Below are positions 5,159 to 34,676 of a stretch of DNA of 35,425 bases, in pieces (the stretch's first letter is position 1; every line of letters starts with the position of its first letter). A program made the translations under genes and the position numbers. The notes beneath the pieces were generated by a model that saw only the letters and a list, made by a program, of their open reading frames with translations, did not search any database and was not told where the DNA came from. The stretch comes from Lachnospiraceae bacterium. GTDB lineage: Bacteria > Bacillota > Clostridia > Lachnospirales > Lachnospiraceae. Where the stretch lies: the NCBI GenBank assembly GCA_017622795.1, contig JAGAQI010000011.1, positions 1-35,425 on the forward strand, written 5' to 3'.

Positions 5159-7867
5159 ATGAAAGTTTGGAAAAAAAGAGGCTTAGCCTTATTACTTAGC
5201 ACAGCGATGGTGTTTTCCCTGGCAGCCTGCGGAAATAAAAACACTACACCGGAGATAACTCCTACGGTGGCTCCGAGCGCAACCGAAGCGGTTGAACCAA
5301 CCGCAGTGCCAACAAAAGCGCCGGCTGCACCTACTGCGGAGCCAACAGCTAGAACAGCTCCGACAGAAGCTCCAACAGCAACACCGGAGCCAACAGCAAC
5401 GCCAAAACCAACAGCAACACCAAAACCAACGGCAACTCCGTTTCCTGTTGCTGCCGGTACGGAAGCTTTTCGAGAGTTAACAGCGGAGCAGATGGTCGCG
5501 GAAATGGGCACCGGTTGGAACCTTGGTAATACCATGGATGGCCACACCGGTTTTACTCCGCTGGAAACGCAGTGGCAGCCGTATGTTACTACCAAAGAAC
5601 TGATTACTGCGGTGCACGATGCGGGATTTAATACGGTGCGTGTTCCTGTTACCTGGGGAAACATGATTGATGATGAAAATGGTTATGCCATTAACGAAAA
5701 GTGGATATCAAGAGTGCAGGAAATCGTAGATTACTGTGTTTCTCAGGATATGTATTGTATTATAAATATTCATCATGACGGAGCAGAGCAGACCGGCTGG
5801 ATTCGTGTGGCCGCCGATGACCTGGGTCCGGTAAAAGAAAAGTTTGCAGCGGTGTGGAAACACATAGCAGAACGCTTTAGAGATTATGATGAACATTTGA
5901 TTTTTGAATCCATGAATGAAGTGACAGGTCCGGATGGTTCCGCTGCCGGAATTAAGAAGGATATGCAAGTCATCATGGAATTGAATCAGATTTTTGTAGA
6001 TACGGTTCGTGCGACAGGCAGCAATAATGTAAAGCGATGGCTGTCAGTACCGGGCAGATATACCAATATTAAAAATACAACCAATGAGGAATATGGCTTC
6101 GAAATGCCAAAGGACGAGGCTGGTCATTTGTTCCTTGCAGTGCATGACTATGACTGGAATTTTGGTCTGAATGAAGACAGTCCTTCTAAGACTTACGGAG
6201 AAGCAGCGGCAGCCAGTCTGGAGGCAAATATGCAGAAGCTTTCCAAGTTTATTGACGCAGGCTATCCGGTTATTTTGGGCGAATACGGTGCAATTGATAA
6301 AAACAACACCACAGAACGCGCATACTATGCAGAAGCGGTCAATTATATGTGTAAAAAGATCGGTATTGTTCCGGTGTGGTGGGATGCCGGCGCATTTAAT
6401 CATGATGACCCGAATAAGACAGATTTCTGCTTTACTCTGATTCGTCGTGATACTTATGAATTGATGTATCCGGAATTAACCTATGGCATTATGCGTGGTT
6501 TTAACTTAGATTACACCAGTCTTGCCGATGTTGTGAAGGGTTGTGACACAGTGGCCATGACCGACATCCTGTTGGATTCTGCCGGCACGGTAGTTGCCGA
6601 TGGCAAGGTATCTTTAGAGGTTGGTAAGTATGTTACGATAGAGAGTGAAAAAAATCCTGCGGAATGTAACGATGTGATTCTGTGGAAAACTTCTAATCCG
6701 GATGTGGCTACTGTTTACAATGGTATGATCCATGGAAAGAGTATTGGTACGGCAATCATCACAGCATATTCCATGTATGGTGATGTGCAGGAGGAAATTA
6801 CGGTTATTGTAAACGCACAGACTTCTAAGGCGAAATGTACCAAAATTGTACTCCCTCAAACTACAATTACGATGCAGCAGGGTACACATACCAATCTGCA
6901 GGCAAAGATGAAGCCGGATAATACCGATGCAGTACTTTCTTATAAGTCTACAAATGAGAAAATCTGTACGGTAAATGAATTTGGTGAAATTACAGCTCAT
7001 CAGGCAGGAATCGCATATGTTGTAATTCAGTCTTCCACCGGTTTTTGTAAGGAAGTAAAGGTTAAGGTTTCCGCAGTATCTTCTACCGGTGAAATTCAGG
7101 TGGCATTGAATGCATATTTCAGTGATGGTGCACACAATTATTACGGCAATGATATAGGTGAGGCTGTAACTATCACAGGAAATGGCCAGTACACCGTAGT
7201 GATTGATGCATCCACCGACCTTTCCGATGCGGCTAAGGCAGCAGGTGTAACCAGTCTGGCAGGTATTGGCTCCTTGTATATTAAGGATTATCTGGTAACA
7301 ACAGCAGTAAAAGCAAAAACAGAAGCGGCAACCTGCGAAATCAAGTATGATAAGATTGTGGTAGACGGTCAGGAATTAACGATTACCCAGACGGCCCCAA
7401 AGAGTGCATTGAAGGGCGGAATACTGGATACCGGAGACCCATTTAACGCATGGGACGGTTCCGCTGTGGCAGAGGTTACTGCAAACAGTGACTTCTCCTT
7501 AAATATTGCAGGACATCCGGAACCAAAGCGTATTGAAGTAACCTTTACGGTTTCCAATCTGGTATTTGAATCGACAGAGACCGTGGAAACCGTTCCAATT
7601 ACTTCCATTAAGGCAACGGAGACAGAGGCAACCATGGCAGTAGGTGAAACAAGGGAATTCACCATTACTGTAGAACCTGGTATTACAACAGAAAAAATTG
7701 CATTTATGTCCGATGACAGTTCTGTAGCTGTCGTTGAAGTAACAGGAAAATTACCGGAAGATGGCAAGGTAACGGTTAAAGTAACCTGCCTTAAGGCCGG
7801 TAAAGCAAATATTACCGCTATGGGTGAGCAGAGAGGTAAAGTAAAGATAAAGATTACTGCTAAGTAG
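5159..7867 (+). CDS. GH5-family endoglucanase-like lipoprotein with Ig-like (Big_2) domains
   Basis: This is a surface-anchored beta-glucan hydrolase of 902 residues. The lipobox SLAAC places the lipidated Cys at 24. Residues 30-97 are a Pro/Thr/Ala/Glu linker with ATPKPT repeats, suited to span the cell wall. The GH5 catalytic domain covers ~105-450: GTGWNLGNTMDG at 117-128, the HH pair at 205-206, FESMNEV with acid/base Glu254, HDY at 329-331, ILGEYGA with nucleophile Glu375, and VWWDAGAF at 406-413. Two Big_2-like beta domains follow (~480-552 and ~558-638). Next comes a ~160-residue region (~643-803) resembling a beta-rich carbohydrate-binding module that I cannot name, then a third Ig-like domain (~812-902). 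It probably generates oligosaccharides for the upstream transporter. The specific substrate (cellulose, mixed-linkage glucan, mannan) is uncertain. Confidence 0.9.
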   Translation: MKVWKKRGLALLLSTAMVFSLAACGNKNTTPEITPTVAPSATEAVEPTAVPTKAPAAPTAEPTARTAPTEAPTATPEPTATPKPTATPKPTATPFPVAAGTEAFRELTAEQMVAEMGTGWNLGNTMDGHTGFTPLETQWQPYVTTKELITAVHDAGFNTVRVPVTWGNMIDDENGYAINEKWISRVQEIVDYCVSQDMYCIINIHHDGAEQTGWIRVAADDLGPVKEKFAAVWKHIAERFRDYDEHLIFESMNEVTGPDGSAAGIKKDMQVIMELNQIFVDTVRATGSNNVKRWLSVPGRYTNIKNTTNEEYGFEMPKDEAGHLFLAVHDYDWNFGLNEDSPSKTYGEAAAASLEANMQKLSKFIDAGYPVILGEYGAIDKNNTTERAYYAEAVNYMCKKIGIVPVWWDAGAFNHDDPNKTDFCFTLIRRDTYELMYPELTYGIMRGFNLDYTSLADVVKGCDTVAMTDILLDSAGTVVADGKVSLEVGKYVTIESEKNPAECNDVILWKTSNPDVATVYNGMIHGKSIGTAIITAYSMYGDVQEEITVIVNAQTSKAKCTKIVLPQTTITMQQGTHTNLQAKMKPDNTDAVLSYKSTNEKICTVNEFGEITAHQAGIAYVVIQSSTGFCKEVKVKVSAVSSTGEIQVALNAYFSDGAHNYYGNDIGEAVTITGNGQYTVVIDASTDLSDAAKAAGVTSLAGIGSLYIKDYLVTTAVKAKTEAATCEIKYDKIVVDGQELTITQTAPKSALKGGILDTGDPFNAWDGSAVAEVTANSDFSLNIAGHPEPKRIEVTFTVSNLVFESTETVETVPITSIKATETEATMAVGETREFTITVEPGITTEKIAFMSDDSSVAVVEVTGKLPEDGKVTVKVTCLKAGKANITAMGEQRGKVKIKITAK

Positions 7868-22900: not shown

Positions 22901-23811
22901 GGACCGATACTTTAGAAAGAGTATTCCCAACCCGTTCCAAGGTGAAGGAAACAGAAGCTCCAAAGGTACTCTTTGATGCAAAGACCATCTACACAGCAAA
23001 GAACAAGATTGCAAAGCCTACCGTATTTATTCCTGTATTCCCTGGTACCAACTGTGAGTACGATACCCTTCGTGCTTTCGAAGCAGCAGGTGCAAACGTA
23101 AATACTGTAGTATTCAAGAACAGAAATGAAGCAGACATCAGAGAATCCGTACTTGCTTTCGAAAAGGCTATCAAGGAAGCACAGATTCTTATGTTCCCTG
23201 GCGGCTTCTCCGCTGGTGACGAGCCTGACGGTTCCGGTAAGTTCATTGCAACTGCATTCCAGAATGCAAAGATTACCGACGCGGTTAATGCTCTCCTGAA
23301 GGAAAGAGACGGTCTTGCTCTTGGTATCTGTAACGGTTTCCAGGCTATCATCAAGCTTGGTCTGGTACCATACGGCGAAATCACTCCACAGAAGGATGAT
23401 TCCCCAACCTTAACAAGAAACAACATCGGACGCCACATTTCCAAGTCCGTTTACACCAAGGTTGTGACTAACAAGTCCCCATGGCTTATGAAGGCAGAGC
23501 TTGGCGGCGTTTACGCTGTACCTGCTTCCCACGGTGAAGGACGTTTCGTAGCAAGCAAGGAATGGTTAGAGAAGTTAGCGGCTAACGGTCAGATTGCTAC
23601 CCAGTACGTAGACCTTGACGGCAACTCAACCATGGACGAAGACTTCAATCCAAACGCTTCCTACTGGGCAATCGAAGGTATTACCAGCCCGGACGGCCGT
23701 GTACTTGGTAAGATGGCTCACTCCGAGCGTCGTGGTGATGGCGTGGCTCTCAATATTTACGGTGAGCAGAACCAGAGAATTTTCGAGAGTGGTGTAGAGT
23801 ACTTTAAGTAA
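19993..23811 (+). CDS. purL: Phosphoribosylformylglycinamidine synthase, single-chain clostridial type
   Basis: FGAM synthase converts FGAR, glutamine and ATP to FGAM in de novo purine synthesis. At 1272 residues it is the fused form carrying the PurS-like, synthetase and glutaminase parts that Bacillus encodes as purS, purL and purQ. Seen in order: the N-terminal PurS-like region; TYWSDHCRHTTF; ETHNHPTEIEPFGGAATCLG; GGAIRDPLSGRG; the second ATP-grasp-like half with GGKDSMSGTF; and the glutaminase domain from ~1010. There, GICNGFQ holds nucleophile Cys1113 and PASHGEGRF holds His1180 and Glu1182. AAAGGAGG precedes the ATG. Codon use favours C-ending and AAG codons more than neighbouring genes, suggesting high expression. 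It stands alone, with no other pur genes adjacent. Confidence 0.97.
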   Translation: MANVRRVYAEKKPAYAVRAEELMNEIKEYLNIQTVSGVRVLVRYDVENVSEETYKKALVTVFSEPPVDYVYEETFEKNAGDKVFSVEYLPGQFDQRADSAEQCVKLLNETEEPVIRSATTYVLSGDVTDAEVEAIKSYCINPVDSRAASEVKPETLNTVFEDPADVIIYDGFKDMPEAELKALYDSLGLAMTFKDFLHIQNYFKNEEKRDPSVTEIRVLDTYWSDHCRHTTFSTELTNVTFEDGDYKAPIEASYQHYLKSREVMYAGRDDKFVCLMDLAVFAMKQLRADGKLEDMEVSDEINACSIIVPVEIDGKTEEWLVFFKNETHNHPTEIEPFGGAATCLGGAIRDPLSGRGYVYQAMRVTGAADPTVAIKDTLSGKLPQRKIVTGAANGYSSYGNQIGLATGLVDEIYHPNYVAKRLEIGAVMGAAPRRNVIRENSDPGDIIILMGGRTGRDGCGGATGSSKAHTTESIATCGAEVQKGNAPTERKLQRLFRREEVTKLIKKCNDFGAGGVSVAIGELADGLRVDLDKVPKKYAGLDGTELAISESQERMAIVVEAKDVDAMLAFAAEENLEAVPVAVVTEEKRLVLSWRGKEIVNIARKFLDTNGAHQETTAVVTMPKAEDNYFNKGADYAAARTNKKLAKNEGVLAGKEGVELAWLAMLADLNSCSKKGLVEMFDSSIGASTVTMPYGGKYQLTPVQTMIAKLPVLRGKCDTVTMMSYGFDPYLSSWSPYHGAAYAVISSVAKIVAAGGDYTKIRFTFQEYFRRLGNDPKRWGEPLAALLGAYEAQMKLGLPSIGGKDSMSGTFQDIDVPPTLVSFAVDIAKTGDVITGEFRKAGNKIVKFGMKKDAYSLPDYEDFMAQMTKITALAREGAIASMYALGAKGIAEAVSKMGFGNKLGAKICAGCTSEEALFAPAYGEILAEVTDVAKLDAAGVSYYVVGEVTEEPVFAYGGVKVSMEDALAAWTDTLERVFPTRSKVKETEAPKVLFDAKTIYTAKNKIAKPTVFIPVFPGTNCEYDTLRAFEAAGANVNTVVFKNRNEADIRESVLAFEKAIKEAQILMFPGGFSAGDEPDGSGKFIATAFQNAKITDAVNALLKERDGLALGICNGFQAIIKLGLVPYGEITPQKDDSPTLTRNNIGRHISKSVYTKVVTNKSPWLMKAELGGVYAVPASHGEGRFVASKEWLEKLAANGQIATQYVDLDGNSTMDEDFNPNASYWAIEGITSPDGRVLGKMAHSERRGDGVALNIYGEQNQRIFESGVEYFK

Positions 23812-23812
23812 T

Positions 23813-24012
23813 TAACAAGGTTACTGTTTGAAAATTGAGAAAGTGGGATTTATCTGAGACAATATATTGTCTTATGATAAATCCCACTTTTTTAATTTGA
23901 AAAAGAAACCGCCAAATATATATGAGTAAAACAGTAGTTGCGAAGCAACGGCTGACGGCTTGGACGGCAGGTTTTACGAATATATTTGGCGGTTTAAACA
24001 GTAACCTTGTTA
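23813..24012 (+). repeat. ~200-bp structured inverted-repeat element, full copy 1
   Basis: The ends are a perfect 17-bp inverted repeat beginning TAACAAGGTTACTG (23813-23829 and 23996-24012). Inside are two side-by-side hairpins. Hairpin A (23840-23890) has a 15-bp perfect stem and a palindromic tip, followed by a run of T. Hairpin B (23906-23995) has a 16-bp outer helix, a GA/GA internal loop (23924-23925 with 23978-23979), a 7-bp helix and two small apical hairpins, one GTTGC-GAA-GCAAC. It starts one base after the purL stop. A highly similar copy lies inverted at 26574-26777. TA at both outer ends could be a target duplication, as in IS630/mariner-type MITEs. No coding capacity is credible. 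Confidence 0.9.
23840..23896 (+). terminator. Terminator-like hairpin A within repeat copy 1, downstream of purL
   Basis: AAAGTGGGATTTATC pairs perfectly with its complement at 23876-23890. The apex is a 16-nt palindrome around ACAATATATTGT, and a T-rich tract follows to about 23893. It is well placed to end the purL transcript. Confidence 0.75.
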
Positions 24013-24023
24013 TTTTGGGACAT

Positions 24024-24842
24024 TTAGTTTGTTTCAGTAACTTCGGAAGATACTTCAGAATTCTTGTTTCCCTTATATTTCACATAAATCACAATCGCCA
24101 CAATTGGAAAGATTCCTAATTCTAAAATATCTTCCGTTGTATAAATAATATCTGTCAGCAGTCCATACTGTATATTTTCGCAGAAATAGTTCGGAATACG
24201 GATTAAAATATCCCATACGGTATGTATTACCATGCATAGTACAAGATTTCCGGAGTGTAGATAAATTGCTGCAACAAATATTCCAAAGGCACTGGCATAT
24301 AAGGCTTGCCAGAGACAGGAAATTATGTCACTTCCAAACAGAAAATTCAGAATATGCGTTGCTCCGAAGCATAAACCGGTAAGAAATACCATTGCAAACC
24401 TGCCTTTTGCAGAATCTTTCCATTTGGCTAACATTCCACTCATTAAAATACCTTTGGAAGCAGCCTCTTCCCAAAAGCCGGTTCCGATTTGTTGCAGACA
24501 AGACCACAAAAAGCCGGAAATGTAGGCAGTTGTGAGACTTTCTGCAGTGGGAAGATGTAAAAATTGTATGAGAAGGTATAAGAACATTGGGATACAGTAC
24601 AACCAAGTACTTTTAGGTGGTCGGGTAGTGAACAGCTTGCCAAATTTATTTTTGTAAATTACTTTTAATAGTATGAGAGTTAAGATGCTTGTGATGATTC
24701 GCAGACAGGAGTCTACAATAACACCGCATTCGGAAATTCCGGTTGCGACTAAAAAATATTCAAACAGGATAAAGCAGATACTAATTCCCATGCCAAGTAT
24801 CAGTCCGATTAATATGGGAAACTTATTATACAGTTTTTTCAT
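24024..24842 (-). CDS. CPBP-family-like intramembrane protease homologue
   Basis: This multi-pass membrane protein has 273 residues from the ATG at 24842, which is preceded by AGAGG; an in-frame ATG at 24944 would add 34 residues without a good site. About seven to eight hydrophobic segments are seen. The CPBP (CAAX protease and bacteriocin-processing) motifs are recognisable. Motif 1 is GFWEEAASKG, with Glu125-Glu126 but Lys130 where Arg is usual. Motif 2 is FGATH (Phe159, His163). Motif 3 is HTVWD (His207, Asp211). Family members process peptides, bacteriocin or lipoprotein-related substrates, or give self-immunity. The target here is unknown. It is convergent with purL across the 200-bp repeat element and lies in the accessory patch. 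Confidence 0.78.
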   Translation of the reverse strand: MKKLYNKFPILIGLILGMGISICFILFEYFLVATGISECGVIVDSCLRIITSILTLILLKVIYKNKFGKLFTTRPPKSTWLYCIPMFLYLLIQFLHLPTAESLTTAYISGFLWSCLQQIGTGFWEEAASKGILMSGMLAKWKDSAKGRFAMVFLTGLCFGATHILNFLFGSDIISCLWQALYASAFGIFVAAIYLHSGNLVLCMVIHTVWDILIRIPNYFCENIQYGLLTDIIYTTEDILELGIFPIVAIVIYVKYKGNKNSEVSSEVTETN

Positions 24843-24953
24843 AAGACCTCTAGAGTATGATGTGATATATGAACTGAGTTTAACATGCTGATTATTGGAT
24901 TTCAAGCAGAATATTTTTTGACTATTAATAACACGTAAAAACAATACAAATAA

Positions 24954-24982
24954 TTGACAATGTAAATCAAAATGAATATAAT
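24954..24982 (+). promoter_or_regulatory. Consensus promoter of the toxin-antitoxin operon
   Basis: TTGACA and TATAAT are separated by exactly 17 bp, a perfect sigma-A match, 62 bases before the antitoxin start. Confidence 0.9.
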
Positions 24983-24996
24983 AAAAGAGAAGAGAG

Positions 24997-25013
24997 ATAC
25001 TAAAGTATAGTAT
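24997..25013 (+). promoter_or_regulatory. Possible autoregulatory operator of the toxin-antitoxin operon
   Basis: ATACTA and TAGTAT form an inverted repeat with a 5-nt spacer just downstream of the promoter. RelB/DinJ antitoxins bind such palindromes to repress their own operon. The assignment is by position only. Confidence 0.45.
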
Positions 25014-25043
25014 TTTGATTTTATATTAAGGAGTGTGGCTAAG

Positions 25044-25316
25044 ATGGCAACAGTACCAACACAGATTAGAATTGACGAAGATGTAAAGAAAAGTGCAGTA
25101 GAATTATTTGCTCAGCTCGGTATGGATATGTCCGGTGCAATTAATATTTTCTTAAAGCAATGTATTTTGAAGAATGGTTTGCCTTTTGCTGTGGAACTTC
25201 CAAAGTATAAGCCGGAGGTTTTAGAAGCAATGGAAGAGGCTAAAAGGATTAGCAGGGATCCGAATGTGAAGGGATACACTGATTTAGAGGAACTATTTAG
25301 GGAGTTAGATGCATGA
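25044..25316 (+). CDS. RelB/DinJ-family antitoxin
   Basis: This is the antitoxin of a type II toxin-antitoxin pair, 90 residues. The ATG at 25044 is chosen because AAGGAG is 10 nt upstream; a GTG at 25035 is too close to that site. The N-terminus (VPTQIRIDEDVKKSAVELFA, then QLGMDMSGAINIFLKQC) is the ribbon-helix-helix DNA-binding fold of RelB/DinJ. The C-terminal part (~55-90) is charged and should wrap around the toxin. The stop overlaps the toxin start by 4 nt (ATGA), the usual translational coupling. It is likely to repress its own promoter together with the toxin. Confidence 0.93.
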   Translation: MATVPTQIRIDEDVKKSAVELFAQLGMDMSGAINIFLKQCILKNGLPFAVELPKYKPEVLEAMEEAKRISRDPNVKGYTDLEELFRELDA

Positions 25317-25594
25317 TATATGAAGTTAAATGGTCGGCAAAATTTAAGAAAAGTTATAAATTAGCCCAAAAGCGAGGTTTGGATACAAAATTATTAGAGG
25401 GAATTGTTGATAAACTTCGTCATGGAATTCCATTAGAAGAAAAATATCATGACCATGAGCTGAAAGGAAAATACAAAGGCTTCCGGGAATGTCACATTCA
25501 GCAGGATTGGCTGTTAATGTATCTGAAGGAAGATGATATATTGGTATTGACCTTAGTTGATACCGGAACACATGCAGATTTATTTGATATGTAA
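25313..25594 (+). CDS. YafQ-family mRNA interferase toxin
   Basis: This is a ribosome-dependent endoribonuclease-type toxin of the RelE superfamily, 93 residues. Visible YafQ features are LAQKRG in the second helix, YHDHELKGKYKGFRECHI, QQDWLLMYL and TGTHADLF at the C-terminus. By alignment in the head with E. coli YafQ, the catalytic-site His, Asp-Trp and the His/Phe of TGTHADLF are kept. The residue before TGTH, Arg83 in E. coli, is Asp here. It is encoded immediately after its antitoxin. A short copy of the local repeat forms a terminator-like hairpin 5 nt after the stop. Confidence 0.92.
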   Translation: MIYEVKWSAKFKKSYKLAQKRGLDTKLLEGIVDKLRHGIPLEEKYHDHELKGKYKGFRECHIQQDWLLMYLKEDDILVLTLVDTGTHADLFDM

Positions 25595-25599
25595 AATAC

Positions 25600-25640
25600 C
25601 AAGGTTACTGTTCGGATTTTCAAGCAGTAACCTTGTTTTT
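25600..25640 (+). terminator. Short derivative of the inverted-repeat element acting as terminator
   Basis: CAAGGTTACTG pairs with CAGTAACCTTG (25625-25635), two further pairs extend the stem inward, and five T follow. The stem is the same sequence as the ends of the two ~200-bp elements, but the interior is only about 10 nt. It sits 5 nt after the toxin stop. It is either an internal deletion of the full element or an ancestral terminator from which it grew. Confidence 0.85.
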
Positions 25641-25733
25641 GCAATTATGAATTGCGTGACTTATTCTTTTAAAAAGTGTATGCTTATTACAGAAACGTTT
25701 CAAACAACAGCCATGAGGCAGAAAGGAGAAGGC

Positions 25734-26210
25734 ATGTTAGACTGTATTGCCGTGGGAAAAAAGATACAGGAATATCGCATAAAAAATAAGTATCATCAGG
25801 ACCAGTTGGCAGAACTGCTTTATGTAAGCAGACAAGCAGTATCCCGGTGGGAACTGGGACAGGCAGTGCCTACCATTGACAATCTGATAACGTTAACCAG
25901 ATTATTTGGGGTGTCGTTTGAAGAATTATTGTGTCTGAATGAGGAAAAAGATCCTGACCCGCAGAATCTCTTTCGGGGACATAACCGGGAGTATATTGTC
26001 CGCAGAATTTGTGACGGTGATTTAAAGGTGGATTTGCCTGAAGTGTTCTGGCAGTTTTCATCGGAGGAGAGGATGCAGGTGCTGAGCTCCATTAAGCGTA
26101 AGGGAGAAAAAATTGATGGAGCGCTATATGACCGGTTATCTACATCAGAACAAGTATTTATGCGTGATAATTTGAACTTTTTTAGAAAGAAAAATGCGAG
26201 GGATTTATAG
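25734..26210 (+). CDS. XRE-family transcriptional regulator
   Basis: This 158-residue protein starts at the ATG at 25734, preceded by AAAGGAGA; a long in-frame upstream extension crosses the repeat hairpin and has no ribosome site. The N-terminal helix-turn-helix (~5-62) is clear: YHQDQLAELLYVSRQAVSRW, then ELGQAVPTIDNLITLTRLFG and VSFEELL. The rest (~63-158) is charged and helical with DLPEVFWQFSSEERMQVLSS, and probably mediates interaction or sensing. The next gene starts 18 nt downstream and encodes a small helical repeat protein, suggesting a functional pair. Target genes are unknown. Confidence 0.87.
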   Translation: MLDCIAVGKKIQEYRIKNKYHQDQLAELLYVSRQAVSRWELGQAVPTIDNLITLTRLFGVSFEELLCLNEEKDPDPQNLFRGHNREYIVRRICDGDLKVDLPEVFWQFSSEERMQVLSSIKRKGEKIDGALYDRLSTSEQVFMRDNLNFFRKKNARDL

Positions 26211-26228
26211 CAGAAAGTGAGGACGATT

Positions 26229-26576
26229 ATGAGTCATGAATTAAAAAAGATGCTGCCTTTTTTAGGAACAGAAGAAATTGATATGATTGCTAAAAATGTA
26301 TTGGAAAGCGAGGCAGAGGAATGGAAAGGGTTCCGGTTAAATGATCTGTTTCCATTCATGAGTACCGCAGTGATTGACAAAATGTTTTTAGAAACAGTGG
26401 AATCCGGAAAAGATTACGGAAGATTTCTTCCGTTTATTTCAGGAAGAGTGATGCATGAAATTGTGGAGGATGTTATTGCTGGTAAAAGAGAAATGAATCT
26501 GGATGCAATGTATCCGTTTCTATCAAATGAGGATATGAAAAAGGTGTTTTATTATTATTTGGATAAAGAGGAGTAA
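26229..26576 (+). CDS. Small helical repeat protein with four xPF(L/M/I) repeats
   Basis: This 115-residue protein starts at the ATG at 26229, with GAGG 6 nt upstream; a GTG at 26217 is less likely. Four units of ~25-30 residues each begin with a PF signature followed by a helix: LPFLGTEEIDMIAKNVL, FPFMSTAVIDKMFLETV, LPFISGRVMHEIVEDVI, YPFLSNEDMKKVFYYYL. I recall similar repeats in the C-termini of some clostridial HTH proteins, so the unit may be a split partner of the XRE protein upstream (inference). The stop codon is the first three bases of the second ~200-bp repeat copy. Confidence 0.78.
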   Translation: MSHELKKMLPFLGTEEIDMIAKNVLESEAEEWKGFRLNDLFPFMSTAVIDKMFLETVESGKDYGRFLPFISGRVMHEIVEDVIAGKREMNLDAMYPFLSNEDMKKVFYYYLDKEE

Positions 26577-26777
26577 CAGGTTACTGTTTGGAAACCGCCA
26601 AATTGGATTCATAAAACCTGCCGGCAAAGCCGTCAGCCGTTGCTGCGCAACTTCTTGTTTTATTCATCCATATTTTGGCGGTTTCTTTTTCAAAATAAAA
26701 AGAGGGGATTTATCTTAGAACAACAAGTTGTCCCAGATAAATCTCCTCTTTCCATTTTTCAAACAGTAACCTTGTTA
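26574..26777 (-). repeat. ~200-bp structured inverted-repeat element, full copy 2 (inverted)
   Basis: Read on the minus strand, this copy matches copy 1 nearly throughout: TAACAAGGTTACTGTTTG, then hairpin A, a TTTGAAAAAGAAACCGCC linker, hairpin B and the closing repeat. The ends are 26574-26590 and 26760-26777, with one base deleted from the former. Hairpin A is 26699-26751 and hairpin B 26591-26685. In hairpin B the GA/GA loop is kept while the flanking helix is TGGAT/ATCCA instead of TATAT/ATATA, and the next helix swaps a G-C for an A-T pair. It begins directly after the stop of the antiporter gene, in sense with it, and overlaps the stop of the convergent repeat-protein gene. Confidence 0.9.
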
Positions 26778-32972: not shown

Positions 32973-33001
32973 TTTACAGAGTTGGGATAATAAGTTATAA
33001 T
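32973..33001 (+). promoter_or_regulatory. Promoter of the FMN-binding repeat protein
   Basis: TTTACA and TATAAT are separated by 17 bp. The -10 box covers the first possible ATG of the reading frame (33000), so the real start must be downstream, at 33075. Confidence 0.82.
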
Positions 33002-33074
33002 GAACAAGCTACGGTGCATTAGGTTTAGGACTTATGTACTAGAGGTCGGAATTAATAAGAAAGTGAGTTTGTTT

Positions 33075-34676
33075 ATGAAAAAGAAAAAAGACAATGGTTT
33101 AAAAGCAGTGATTATACTGGCAGTGGCAACCATCCTGGTGGGAGGAGCGTCCATTGCAATTTCCAAAATGGAACACGCAGGAAGTGTTACTTTAGATGTA
33201 TCAGGTGCAAATTCCAAAATCAAAGAAGCCAGACAGAACGCAGACGGTACTTATACCGTGGTAATTTCCGAGAACGGTTATGTTGGTGAAATGATTATAG
33301 AAGCAACTTATTCTGCGGATGGTCAGACTTTGGTTTCTTATGATGTTACCAGTAGCATGGAAACTGAAAATATCGGTACTAAGGTAGATGAGGAGGCTTA
33401 TAAATCTGTTCTTTCCGGTGTAAAGCTTCCGGTAACCGCAAGCGGACTTGATATTTCTGCTATTCTCGGTATCGAATCAGAAAAAGCTTCTGTTGCAGGT
33501 ACATTAACAGACGGTGTATATAAAGCACAGGCAGAGCCGGATGAAAAAGGTAATTACGGTTTTGTAACCGTAACCATAGCAGACGGCAAGGTTACAAGTG
33601 TTGTATGGGATGAAATGTACGGCGGTGCTTCCAAGGCAGAACTGGCAGCGACCGGTCAGTATGTCATGGTAGAAGGTAACCCAACCTGGAAAGACCAGTC
33701 CGAAGCTCTCGGTGCATATGTGGTAGCAAATCAGACCACCGACGGCATTTTAAACGAAACCGGTTATACCGATGCGGTATCCGGAGTCAGCATTTATGTT
33801 GGCGGCTTTGTGGATTTAACCAATCAGGCAATGGCTCAGGCTTCCGGTGTTGCAGTATTAAAGGATGGTGTATACACTGCACAGGGCGAACCGGACGATA
33901 AGGGTAACTATGGATTCGTAACTGTAACTGTGGAAAAAGGCAAGATTGTATCTGCAGTATGGGATGAGATGTATGGCGGTGAATCCAAGGCACAGCTTTC
34001 CATAGACGGTAAGTATGTTATGAAGCCGGTATGGAAAACCCAATCCGACTCTCTTGGCGCCTATGTAGTGGAAAACCAGACCACTGCAGGTATTATGAAT
34101 GAAACCGGTTATACGGATGCAGTATCCGGTGTCAGTATTTATGTTGGTGGTTTTGTAGGACTTGTAGATAAGGCAATTGCCCAGGCCAACGGCCAGGATG
34201 GTGTTTATACCGTAGAAGGTGAAAAGGATGACAAGGGCAATTACGGCTTTGTAAACGTAACTATTGAGAACGGTAAGGTAACAAATGTCGTATGGGATGA
34301 AATGTATGGCGGCGTTTCAAAAGCACAGCTTTCCGCGGAAGGCAAGTATGTCATGAAGCCGGTATGGAAAACCCAGTCCGAATCCCTTGGTGCCTATGTA
34401 GTAGAAAACCAGACCACAGACGGTATCTTAAATGAAACAGGTTATACCGATGCGGTATCCGGCGTCAGCATTTATGTAGGCGGTTTCGTAGATTTAACCA
34501 ACAAGGCAATTGCACAGGCGTCTGAAAACGGAGAAGTACCGGGAACTTTAGCGACTCCGGCTTTTGATGCTACAAATGTTGATGTAGTATCCGGTGCTAC
34601 CTTCTCTTCTAAGGCAGTTCTTCGTGCCATCAATGAAGGTTTTGTATATTTGAGAGATTTTATATTAAATAAATAA
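33075..34676 (+). CDS. Membrane-anchored protein with repeated FMN-binding domains
   Basis: This is an extracytoplasmic flavoprotein candidate for electron transfer. Starting at the ATG at 33075 it has 533 residues: a basic N-terminus and one membrane anchor (~11-30), then a diverged N-terminal FMN_bind-like domain with METENIGTKV (~95-104). Three near-identical repeats of ~105-112 residues follow (~146-257, 264-371, 376-481). Each has KGNYGFV, VWDEMYGG, LGAYVV and TDAVSGVSIYVGGF. The C-terminus has DVVSGATFSSKAV (~503-515), the canonical [S/T]GAT flavinylation site of ApbE substrates. In the three repeats this reads SGVS, with Ser in place of the acceptor Thr. The divergent apbE strongly supports covalent FMN. 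RnfG/NqrC-like or PplA-like electron transport is possible, but the redox partner is not seen. Confidence 0.9.
   Translation: MKKKKDNGLKAVIILAVATILVGGASIAISKMEHAGSVTLDVSGANSKIKEARQNADGTYTVVISENGYVGEMIIEATYSADGQTLVSYDVTSSMETENIGTKVDEEAYKSVLSGVKLPVTASGLDISAILGIESEKASVAGTLTDGVYKAQAEPDEKGNYGFVTVTIADGKVTSVVWDEMYGGASKAELAATGQYVMVEGNPTWKDQSEALGAYVVANQTTDGILNETGYTDAVSGVSIYVGGFVDLTNQAMAQASGVAVLKDGVYTAQGEPDDKGNYGFVTVTVEKGKIVSAVWDEMYGGESKAQLSIDGKYVMKPVWKTQSDSLGAYVVENQTTAGIMNETGYTDAVSGVSIYVGGFVGLVDKAIAQANGQDGVYTVEGEKDDKGNYGFVNVTIENGKVTNVVWDEMYGGVSKAQLSAEGKYVMKPVWKTQSESLGAYVVENQTTDGILNETGYTDAVSGVSIYVGGFVDLTNKAIAQASENGEVPGTLATPAFDATNVDVVSGATFSSKAVLRAINEGFVYLRDFILNK
33510..34517 (+). repeat. Three tandem in-frame ~320-bp repeats in the FMN-binding gene
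   Basis: Units at about 33510-33845, 33864-34187 and 34200-34517 each encode one FMN_bind-like domain. Long stretches are the same at the protein level (for example NETGYTDAVSGVSIYVGGF in all three) and nearly so at DNA level. This points to recent duplication or ongoing homogenisation. Confidence 0.88.

Follow-up and report, generated by a model that had tools for sequence, protein, structure and literature searches.

Two copies of a structured, MITE-like element in a Lachnospiraceae contig and their relation to the Clostridiales-1 motif

The window (the whole 35,425-nt stretch of Lachnospiraceae DNA analysed here) holds two inverted copies of a short palindromic repeat, which as a whole is probably best explained as a non-autonomous DNA transposon (MITE) with a fold conserved at the level of single-stranded DNA (ssDNA). 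Across the sets of relatives examined, one modular interior recurs under differing terminal repeats. It opens with a long hairpin A, whose tip is often G(CTTG)C; helix P1, a tandem GA/GA step and helix P2 follow, and one or two small hairpins form the cap. The stems of this interior vary in pairs, and its GA steps and loop types are constant.

Place and parts of the two copies

The coordinates of both copies (Table 1) are exactly those given in a preliminary description of the window. Both copies show MITE-type features, being short, bounded by terminal inverted repeats and devoid of a transposase gene; inspection of their flanks found no target-site duplication at either. A repeat search pairs the arms of the two copies with 83% complementarity over 104 nt and 87% over 54 nt. 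In the core of copy 1, the GA/GA step is formed by 23924-23925 with 23978-23979, and P2 (GTAAAAC/GTTTTAC) by 23926-23932 with 23971-23977. Hairpin A is tipped by TATA in copy 1 and by A(CTTG)T in copy 2, CTTG being common among relatives. A further hairpin between the copies, made of the terminal repeats alone, is either a deletion derivative or the parent stem of the element.

Table 1 Features of the element in the window.
Feature	Positions	Strand	Remarks
Whole element, copy 1	23813-24012	+	200 bp; opens TAACAAGG, closes CCTTGTTA; core orientation same as relatives
Whole element, copy 2, inverted relative to copy 1	26574-26777	-	204 bp
Left terminal inverted repeat TAACAAGGTTACTGTTT, copy 1	23813-23829	+	partner 23996-24012
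Right terminal inverted repeat AAACAGTAACCTTGTTA, copy 1	23996-24012	+	partner 23813-23829
Hairpin A, copy 1	23832-23898	+	long stem flanked by runs of A and of T; by eye like a terminator
P1 helix, 5' arm, copy 1	23906-23923	+	partner 23980-23995; sequence variable
Conserved core, copy 1	23923-23980	+	T-A pair, tandem GA/GA, P2, then two apical hairpins (three-way junction)
First apical hairpin (hp1) GTTGC-GAA-GCAAC, copy 1	23937-23949	+	C(GNA)G triloop
Second apical hairpin (hp2) CTGACGGC-TTG-GACGGCAG, copy 1	23952-23970	+	one mismatch more than copy 2
Core of copy 2	26608-26666	-	
Third hairpin, terminal repeats alone, CAAGGTTACTG...CAGTAACCTTG	25600-25635	+	followed by T run; terminator-like by eye

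A single base separates the start of copy 1 from the stop codon (23809-23811) of a purL-like (FGAM-synthase-like) gene, and a convergent CAAX-protease-like gene lies on the other side. Copy 2 sits between a gene without a Pfam match and a convergent Na/Ca-exchanger-like gene, its left end overlapping one stop codon and its right end abutting another.

The copies flank a genus-variable segment (23812-26777), which here carries the CAAX protease, a RelB-YafQ toxin-antitoxin pair and an HTH gene. The counterpart in genome G001 has two small ORFs (95 and 140 aa; by eye an antitoxin and a PIN-type toxin), and that in G003 has other genes; the region 3' of purL has the look of a hotspot of exchange. 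In G001 the exchanger gene is again accompanied by a truncated remnant of copy 2, and purL is followed by a degenerate hairpin whose tip resembles that of hairpin A. In G003 no copy can be recognised after purL, and the site of copy 2 is unmatched. Three TTGTACCGTACCTATGAGGAATT-type repeats with short spacers occur after purL in G003, by eye resembling a small CRISPR array. Elsewhere in the window, tandem copies of ~333-354 bp with 72-85% identity occupy 33510-34522, within an ORF at 33000-34676.

Distribution of the core

The preliminary description had looked to BLAST for further copies, and a search with copy 1 finds them: the core (TGAR-YAAAAC-hairpins-GTTTTRY-GAA) occurs at seven places in the host genome, namely the two window copies and five others with different outer sequences. 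Of 397 genomes of the window's family (Lachnospiraceae), 18 carry the pattern TGARYAAAAC-(22-52)-GTTTTRYGAA, with 78 matches summed over the full set, 50 of them in genome G303, as against 3 for a reversed control pattern. A narrower core pattern matches at least 120 stretches in genome contigs. Among the matches listed for it are Mediterraneibacter, Blautia, Dorea, Claveliimonas, [Ruminococcus] torques, Oribacterium and other genera, together with scattered matches from distant phyla, whose appearance suggests chance or other repeats. In three Desulfobacterales and deltaproteobacterial MAGs (loci L077, L139 and L158) the core pattern caught a different repeated single hairpin, TGAGCAAAACC..GGTTTTGCGAATGA.

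A phage or viral origin was rejected: 13 viral stretches match the core pattern without an excess of the fold (two hairpins in 4 of 9 distinct interiors and in 156 of 450 shuffles). A search of phage sequences gave just two partial matches (52% and 33% coverage), and one of plasmid sequences gave no match.

Terminal repeats and target duplications

The relatives of the window copies are a transposon (MITE) superfamily. Ends that occur in it include GTAACAGTTCAGCC and GATACCAGGGTCAAAAGG; elements in the copy-rich G303 and its kin have GTAACAGTTCAGCC at one end and GGCTGAACTGTTAC at the other. Exact 8-bp target duplications flank 18 of 53 end pairs of relatives; the 53 include three alternative pairings sharing an end (L112, L148 and L240) and some orthologous insertions. 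A match at 7 or more of 8 positions is found for 27 of the 53, where mismatched flanks would give 0.84%. Exact repeats of other lengths are scarce, with 4 bp in three end pairs, 6 bp in one, and 5, 7 or 9-13 bp in none. Within the window's own genus, locus L359 has a window-type core between GTAACTATTCAG ends, with the exact 8-bp duplication AAACATTT on both sides. On such grounds a MITE origin of the element is highly probable. The word 'mobile' in the preliminary description thus holds for the family, through terminal inverted repeats and the target duplications of relatives; the window copies themselves bear no direct sign of movement.

Deletion derivatives occur that lack hairpin A or the core, by eye with short direct repeats at the junctions, and one core-less derivative has an exact target duplication. 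Loci L006 and L035, from two species of the window's genus, show the same, hairpin A being missing in one; their 3' flanks are identical at 345 of 400 positions and their 5' flanks, compared ungapped, at only 104 of 200.

Searches for a mobiliser among IS66 genes and among ORFs between end pairs found no transposase with these ends. IS66 DDE matches occur in three of seven genomes and not in the copy-rich G303, which leaves such a role unsupported; none of ten ORFs between widely spaced end pairs is a transposase (Pfam), and the genes of L157 include none by eye. A SINE-like retro-element is not favoured, given duplications of fixed length and inverted repeats at both ends, and an integron attC site was rejected on the target duplications.

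Two further observations concern single loci. At L047 the outer palindrome runs on for ~12 bp past the ends in the form of an inverted repeat, flanked by TTGACA and a TATAAT-like hexamer (by eye), as if a fold-back copy had lengthened the arms. L157, from an Oribacterium MAG, carries another hairpin MITE at 770-932 and 7189-7352, with GYAACTATTCAG ends and exact 8-bp duplications and without the core pattern.

Conservation of the fold

Copy 1 folded as DNA reaches -61.3 kcal/mol (z -15.1) and copy 2 folded as RNA -95.7 (z -13.4), values matched by 0 of 200 shuffles in each case. From copy 1 to copy 2, TATAT/ATATA becomes TGGAT/ATCCA and GTAAAAC/GTTTTAC becomes ATAAAAC/GTTTTAT, and these paired helix swaps, described beforehand, are visible. 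The GA/GA loop and the GTTGC-3nt-GCAAC hairpin are unchanged; in the second apical hairpin copy 1 has a G-A mismatch (GGC/GAC) and copy 2 has none. Inverted copies that lie 2.6 kb from each other can exchange sequence, which makes paired changes in the two window copies alone weak evidence.

Support for the pairing from the wider family comes from an alignment of 23 window-type cores (A2), in which 88.2% of cells pair (shuffled 79.3, s.d. 0.8), 14 of 27 pairs have changed on both sides, both-side changes fill 72 cells (shuffled 29.3, s.d. 4.0) and covariation is 0.273 (shuffled 0.114, s.d. 0.011). None of 500 shuffles reaches any of these four values. Further pair types number 29 (shuffled 25.0), a value reached by 15 of 500 shuffles, and sliding the partners by 1-3 columns lowers pairing to 29-46%. 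Pairs in P2 that the search pattern forces are no evidence for pairing. When 78 closely related cores are judged against a stricter null that follows a tree, the two best-scoring column pairs are structure pairs, at E 0.4-0.6 per alignment; the remaining structure pairs do not stand out and the result is borderline. Covariation, proposed beforehand as a check, is upheld by shuffling and marginal under the tree. A 52-nt gapless set was too uniform to give strong covariation.

Lachnospiraceae and related clostridial records supplied 111 distinct interiors; 97 of them form two hairpins of at least 4 bp, compared with 798 of 5,550 shuffles (14.4%). The 14 interiors that fail include evident chance matches (L046, L059 and L121) and genuine cores whose stem is shorter or imperfect. 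Counted separately from the 111 were 14 distinct non-Lachnospiraceae interiors (three with two hairpins) and nine viral ones. In P2 the pattern does not constrain the Y-R pair, and 108 of 111 interiors have a Watson-Crick pair there (59 TA, 49 CG). Bulges ignored, pairing in P1 exceeds that of mismatched partners at position 2 (53 of 98 against 37.6) and position 3 (63 of 98 against 41.8), and somewhat at positions 4 and 6 but not 5. The preliminary reading of a structured element with compensatory changes is borne out by the two-hairpin interiors and the both-side changes in A2, and we consider it very probable that the branched fold has been maintained rather than left to drift.

Mutation by template switching is a serious rival to selection on the fold. 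As set out in PMC8794818, in the part of that work used here, template switching creates and repairs stems and can yield paired changes in inverted repeats, and the earlier assertion that a plain MITE would not keep its pairing is accordingly too strong. Hairpin-templated copying within the inverted repeats of an ordinary MITE, with no selection on the fold, would suit the long near-perfect stems, the deletion derivatives (which suggest slippage at hairpins) and the A2 changes, where both-side cells far outnumber one-sided ones (72 against 6). It leaves unexplained the conserved unpaired parts, namely the tandem GA/GA step and the G-N-A and G-N-N-A loops with their free N, as well as the two-hairpin branch shared across genera with different terminal repeats. 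We regard it as unlikely.

Relation to the Clostridiales-1 motif

The Rfam scan suggested in the preliminary description gave, at gathering scores, no match anywhere in the window. The Clostridiales-1 model (RF01699) matches neither copy at E<=1, both staying under its gathering cut-off of 48 bits, and has no match in the host genome at E<=0.001; an E-value search of Rfam with copy 1 returned weak microRNA and rliG matches, far below cut-offs. Relatives with the same core behave differently. Among 28 core-pattern loci searched by E-value, L045 matches RF01699 over the full model length at 49.2 bits, above the cut-off. Full-length matches below it are L057 (44.8), L058 (42.1), L106 (38.4), L047 (32.5) and L072 (32.1 bits), with weak matches at L052 (25.4) and L056 (24.0 bits); a gathering-mode search of 19 core-pattern loci, L106 included, gave no RF01699 match. 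The impression that the element belongs to no described RNA class thus stands for the window copies, which reach no Rfam family, and fails for their relatives, one of which scores above the gathering threshold.

The likeness is one of architecture. Clostridiales-1 and the window element share the order outer stem, hairpin A, CCGCC-type linker (by eye), P1, GA step, capped P2 and outer stem, and Clostridiales-1 has a CUUG-tipped hairpin A, a UGAG/CGAA tandem GA step and a multicopy, mostly Lachnospiraceae distribution. The tandem GA step is present in the window copies (UGAA/UGAA in copy 2), and TGAR..YGAA occurs in 62 of 66 RF01699-type elements. A G(CNNG)C tip on hairpin A is found in 59 of these 66 and in 72 of the 142 stretches that lie upstream of core-pattern elements. 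The window copies differ in their two-hairpin cap, longer P2 and other terminal repeats, and both lack the third hairpin that precedes the 3' outer strand in the RF01699 model and in bona fide copies.

In a survey of the window's family that scored at most nine candidates per genome, RF01699 occurs in at least 160 of 299 genomes (at least 129 above the cut-off); 53 genomes reached nine. First-look candidates, up to 218 per genome, are not copy numbers; the host genome had 32 and zero matches. The 5'-end pattern alone has 22 places in genome G251. In a sample of 391 Clostridia genomes RF01699 matches 15, the window's family accounting for 11.

Rfam types RF01699 as gene/sRNA, and Weinberg 2010 (PMC2864571) tables Clostridiales-1 as probably RNA and not cis-regulatory, with no mention of transposon-like ends or duplications in the portions of that paper drawn on here. 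In RF01699-type elements a 3' tail, outside the Rfam match, completes terminal repeats GAT[AG]CCAGGGTCAAAAGG...TTTTGACCCCAACATC. Among 55 elements with recognised ends, mostly from best-scoring matches, 38 have exact, AT-rich 7- or 8-bp duplications (~0.8 expected). At 26 of 90 RF01699 loci, some of the 90 being the same place twice, no end pair was recognised. The duplications and terminal repeats identify many copies of this described RNA motif as transposon copies. RF01699 is another branch of the same transposon superfamily, and a distant relative of the window element.

A broader proposal is more tentative: the Clostridiales-1 'RNA' and its relatives, the window element included, may be a transposon superfamily rather than RNA genes, their shared module being a selected ssDNA fold built of DNA-stable motifs (GNA, GNNA/GNAB and CNNG loops, tandem GA) under differing terminal repeats across Lachnospiraceae. 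If so, a catalogued candidate RNA present in over half the surveyed family genomes would be the conserved core of a mobile element, and covariation, normally taken as evidence for RNA, may report the fold of a DNA strand. The superfamily would then offer a test case for separating RNA from ssDNA selection by loop types, rarity of G-T pairs and orientation, and would point to MITEs in which the interior is better conserved than the ends.

RNA-level or DNA-level fold

The loops bear on this choice. With L046, L059, L078 and L121 dropped, and with counts that are phylogenetically non-independent, 110 core interiors hold 63 C-G-closed tetraloops starting with G: 40 GNYA, 19 GNRA, 4 GNAB and 0 other. 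All 63 fit the DNA-stable cGNNAg/cGNABg classes. Another 15 C-G-closed tetraloops belong to neither class, and a looser scan allowing G-T in stems adds one G-initial exception, GACT. C-G-closed triloops in the same interiors are GNA (71) or ANA (10) in 81 of 97 cases. In RF01699-type elements, 30 distinct core hairpins include 7 GNYA, 2 GNAB and 0 GNRA, and the last hairpin (n=36) includes 14 GNA, 10 ANA and 2 GNRA. The GA steps of the element family lie in a pyrimidine-GA-purine context, which favours sheared pairs in DNA. In A2, 8 of 548 paired cells are G-T (8 of 456 once pattern-forced pairs are removed), a share that is low for an RNA.

Selection experiments on DNA yielded cGNNAg, cGNABg and gCNNGc as stable tetraloops (PMC8373063), and d(GNA) closed by C-G is reported as a stable DNA triloop (PMC5815330), each as given in the part of the source cited. 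Weinberg 2010 (PMC2864571, in the passage on a different motif) argued from UUCG loops for RNA over ssDNA; applied to the window's element family, that loop-type argument points the opposite way, to DNA.

Orientation gives no hint of co-transcription. Among 107 core-pattern copies, 20 are parallel and 38 antiparallel to co-directional neighbours (20 of 58, no preference for co-transcription), 34 lie between divergent and 15 between convergent genes; 13 of the 107 contexts fall inside a called ORF, the ORF calling being crude. Clustering of 449 neighbouring proteins from 144 contexts gave, by eye, common ABC, two-component and regulator families and no recurrent neighbour family. Places in genome G251 are not biased to either replication strand (12 against 10 of 22, the terminus assumed opposite dnaA). 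The top strand folds better than the bottom in 100 of 111 interiors with RNA parameters and in 106 of 111 with DNA parameters; since both favour it, folding energies cannot separate RNA from DNA.

These counts also bear on a two-way transcription terminator, kept between genes with mobility incidental. Both window copies do lie between convergent genes beside stop codons, with A and T runs at hairpin A and a T run at the 25600-25635 hairpin. The convergent setting is nevertheless that of few core-pattern copies, fewer than are divergent, and of just 5 of 20 RF01699-type copies; a consensus terminator scan, limited in loop length and stem, lists neither hairpin, and the complexity of the core would be superfluous for termination. 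We hold this explanation to be quite improbable.

Selection may instead see a transcribed fold. In that case transposition would have spread a true structured RNA, either an sRNA of divergent Clostridiales-1 type or an element carried on mRNA. The sRNA typing in Rfam, the 'probably RNA' judgement of Weinberg 2010 (PMC2864571, as tabled) and the full-length RF01699 matches of relatives speak for it. RNA CUUG loops are stable, and the G(CTTG)C tips and GNRA loops would suit RNA too. Yet 44 of the 63 G-initial tetraloops are not GNRA, G-U pairs are rare, just 20 of 58 co-directional cases are parallel, and no recurring neighbour gene family (clusters by eye) hints at a regulated function. This alternative is doubtful. 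Loop types, rare G-T pairs and the lack of a co-transcription bias lean to a DNA-level fold, and the style of the fold fits folded ssDNA at least as well as RNA. Of the two forms named in the preliminary description, folded RNA and single-stranded DNA, the second is slightly favoured, and we hold with moderate confidence that the fold acts in DNA rather than in RNA.

A proposed folded mobile element and its known counterparts

The preferred reading, a MITE with a fold conserved in ssDNA, would work as follows. A transposase acting in trans on the terminal repeats would move the element, leaving a target duplication of 8 bp (GTAAC... ends) or 7-8 bp (GAT[AG]CC... ends); for the window copies this is extrapolated from the duplications of their relatives. 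The interior would fold, or be copied, on one (top) DNA strand when it is single-stranded, during replication, repair or excision. The folded form would keep the element stable and compact, and may serve as a recognition surface for mobilising or host machinery. Both window copies, lying where they do, may now act as borders or two-way terminators.

REP/REPIN elements mobilised with RAYT (IS200/IS605-like) are likewise intergenic and multicopy, and folding of a single strand is thought important for them. To our knowledge, fixed 7-8 bp duplications are not expected from single-strand HUH transposition. A RAYT/IS200 system was rejected, the Y1 transposase of the host being an IS200-like gene with no core in the flanks examined. 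This gene appears twice because its contig (G000:C8, 265,006 bp) looks mirrored: matches recur there at mirrored positions, as in a palindromic assembly artefact.

Other close counterparts are bacterial MITEs such as Correia/NEMIS, RUP, ERIC and CIR, which in the account drawn on from Delihas 2007 (PMC2229807) are also 100-200 bp long, intergenic and without an ORF, with terminal inverted repeats, a stable fold and high copy number in some genomes. The same part of PMC2229807 describes, for those MITEs, no branched core in which tandem GA and DNA-type loops occur. The present elements differ from them further in that the terminal repeats change between genera, whereas the interior fold is conserved.
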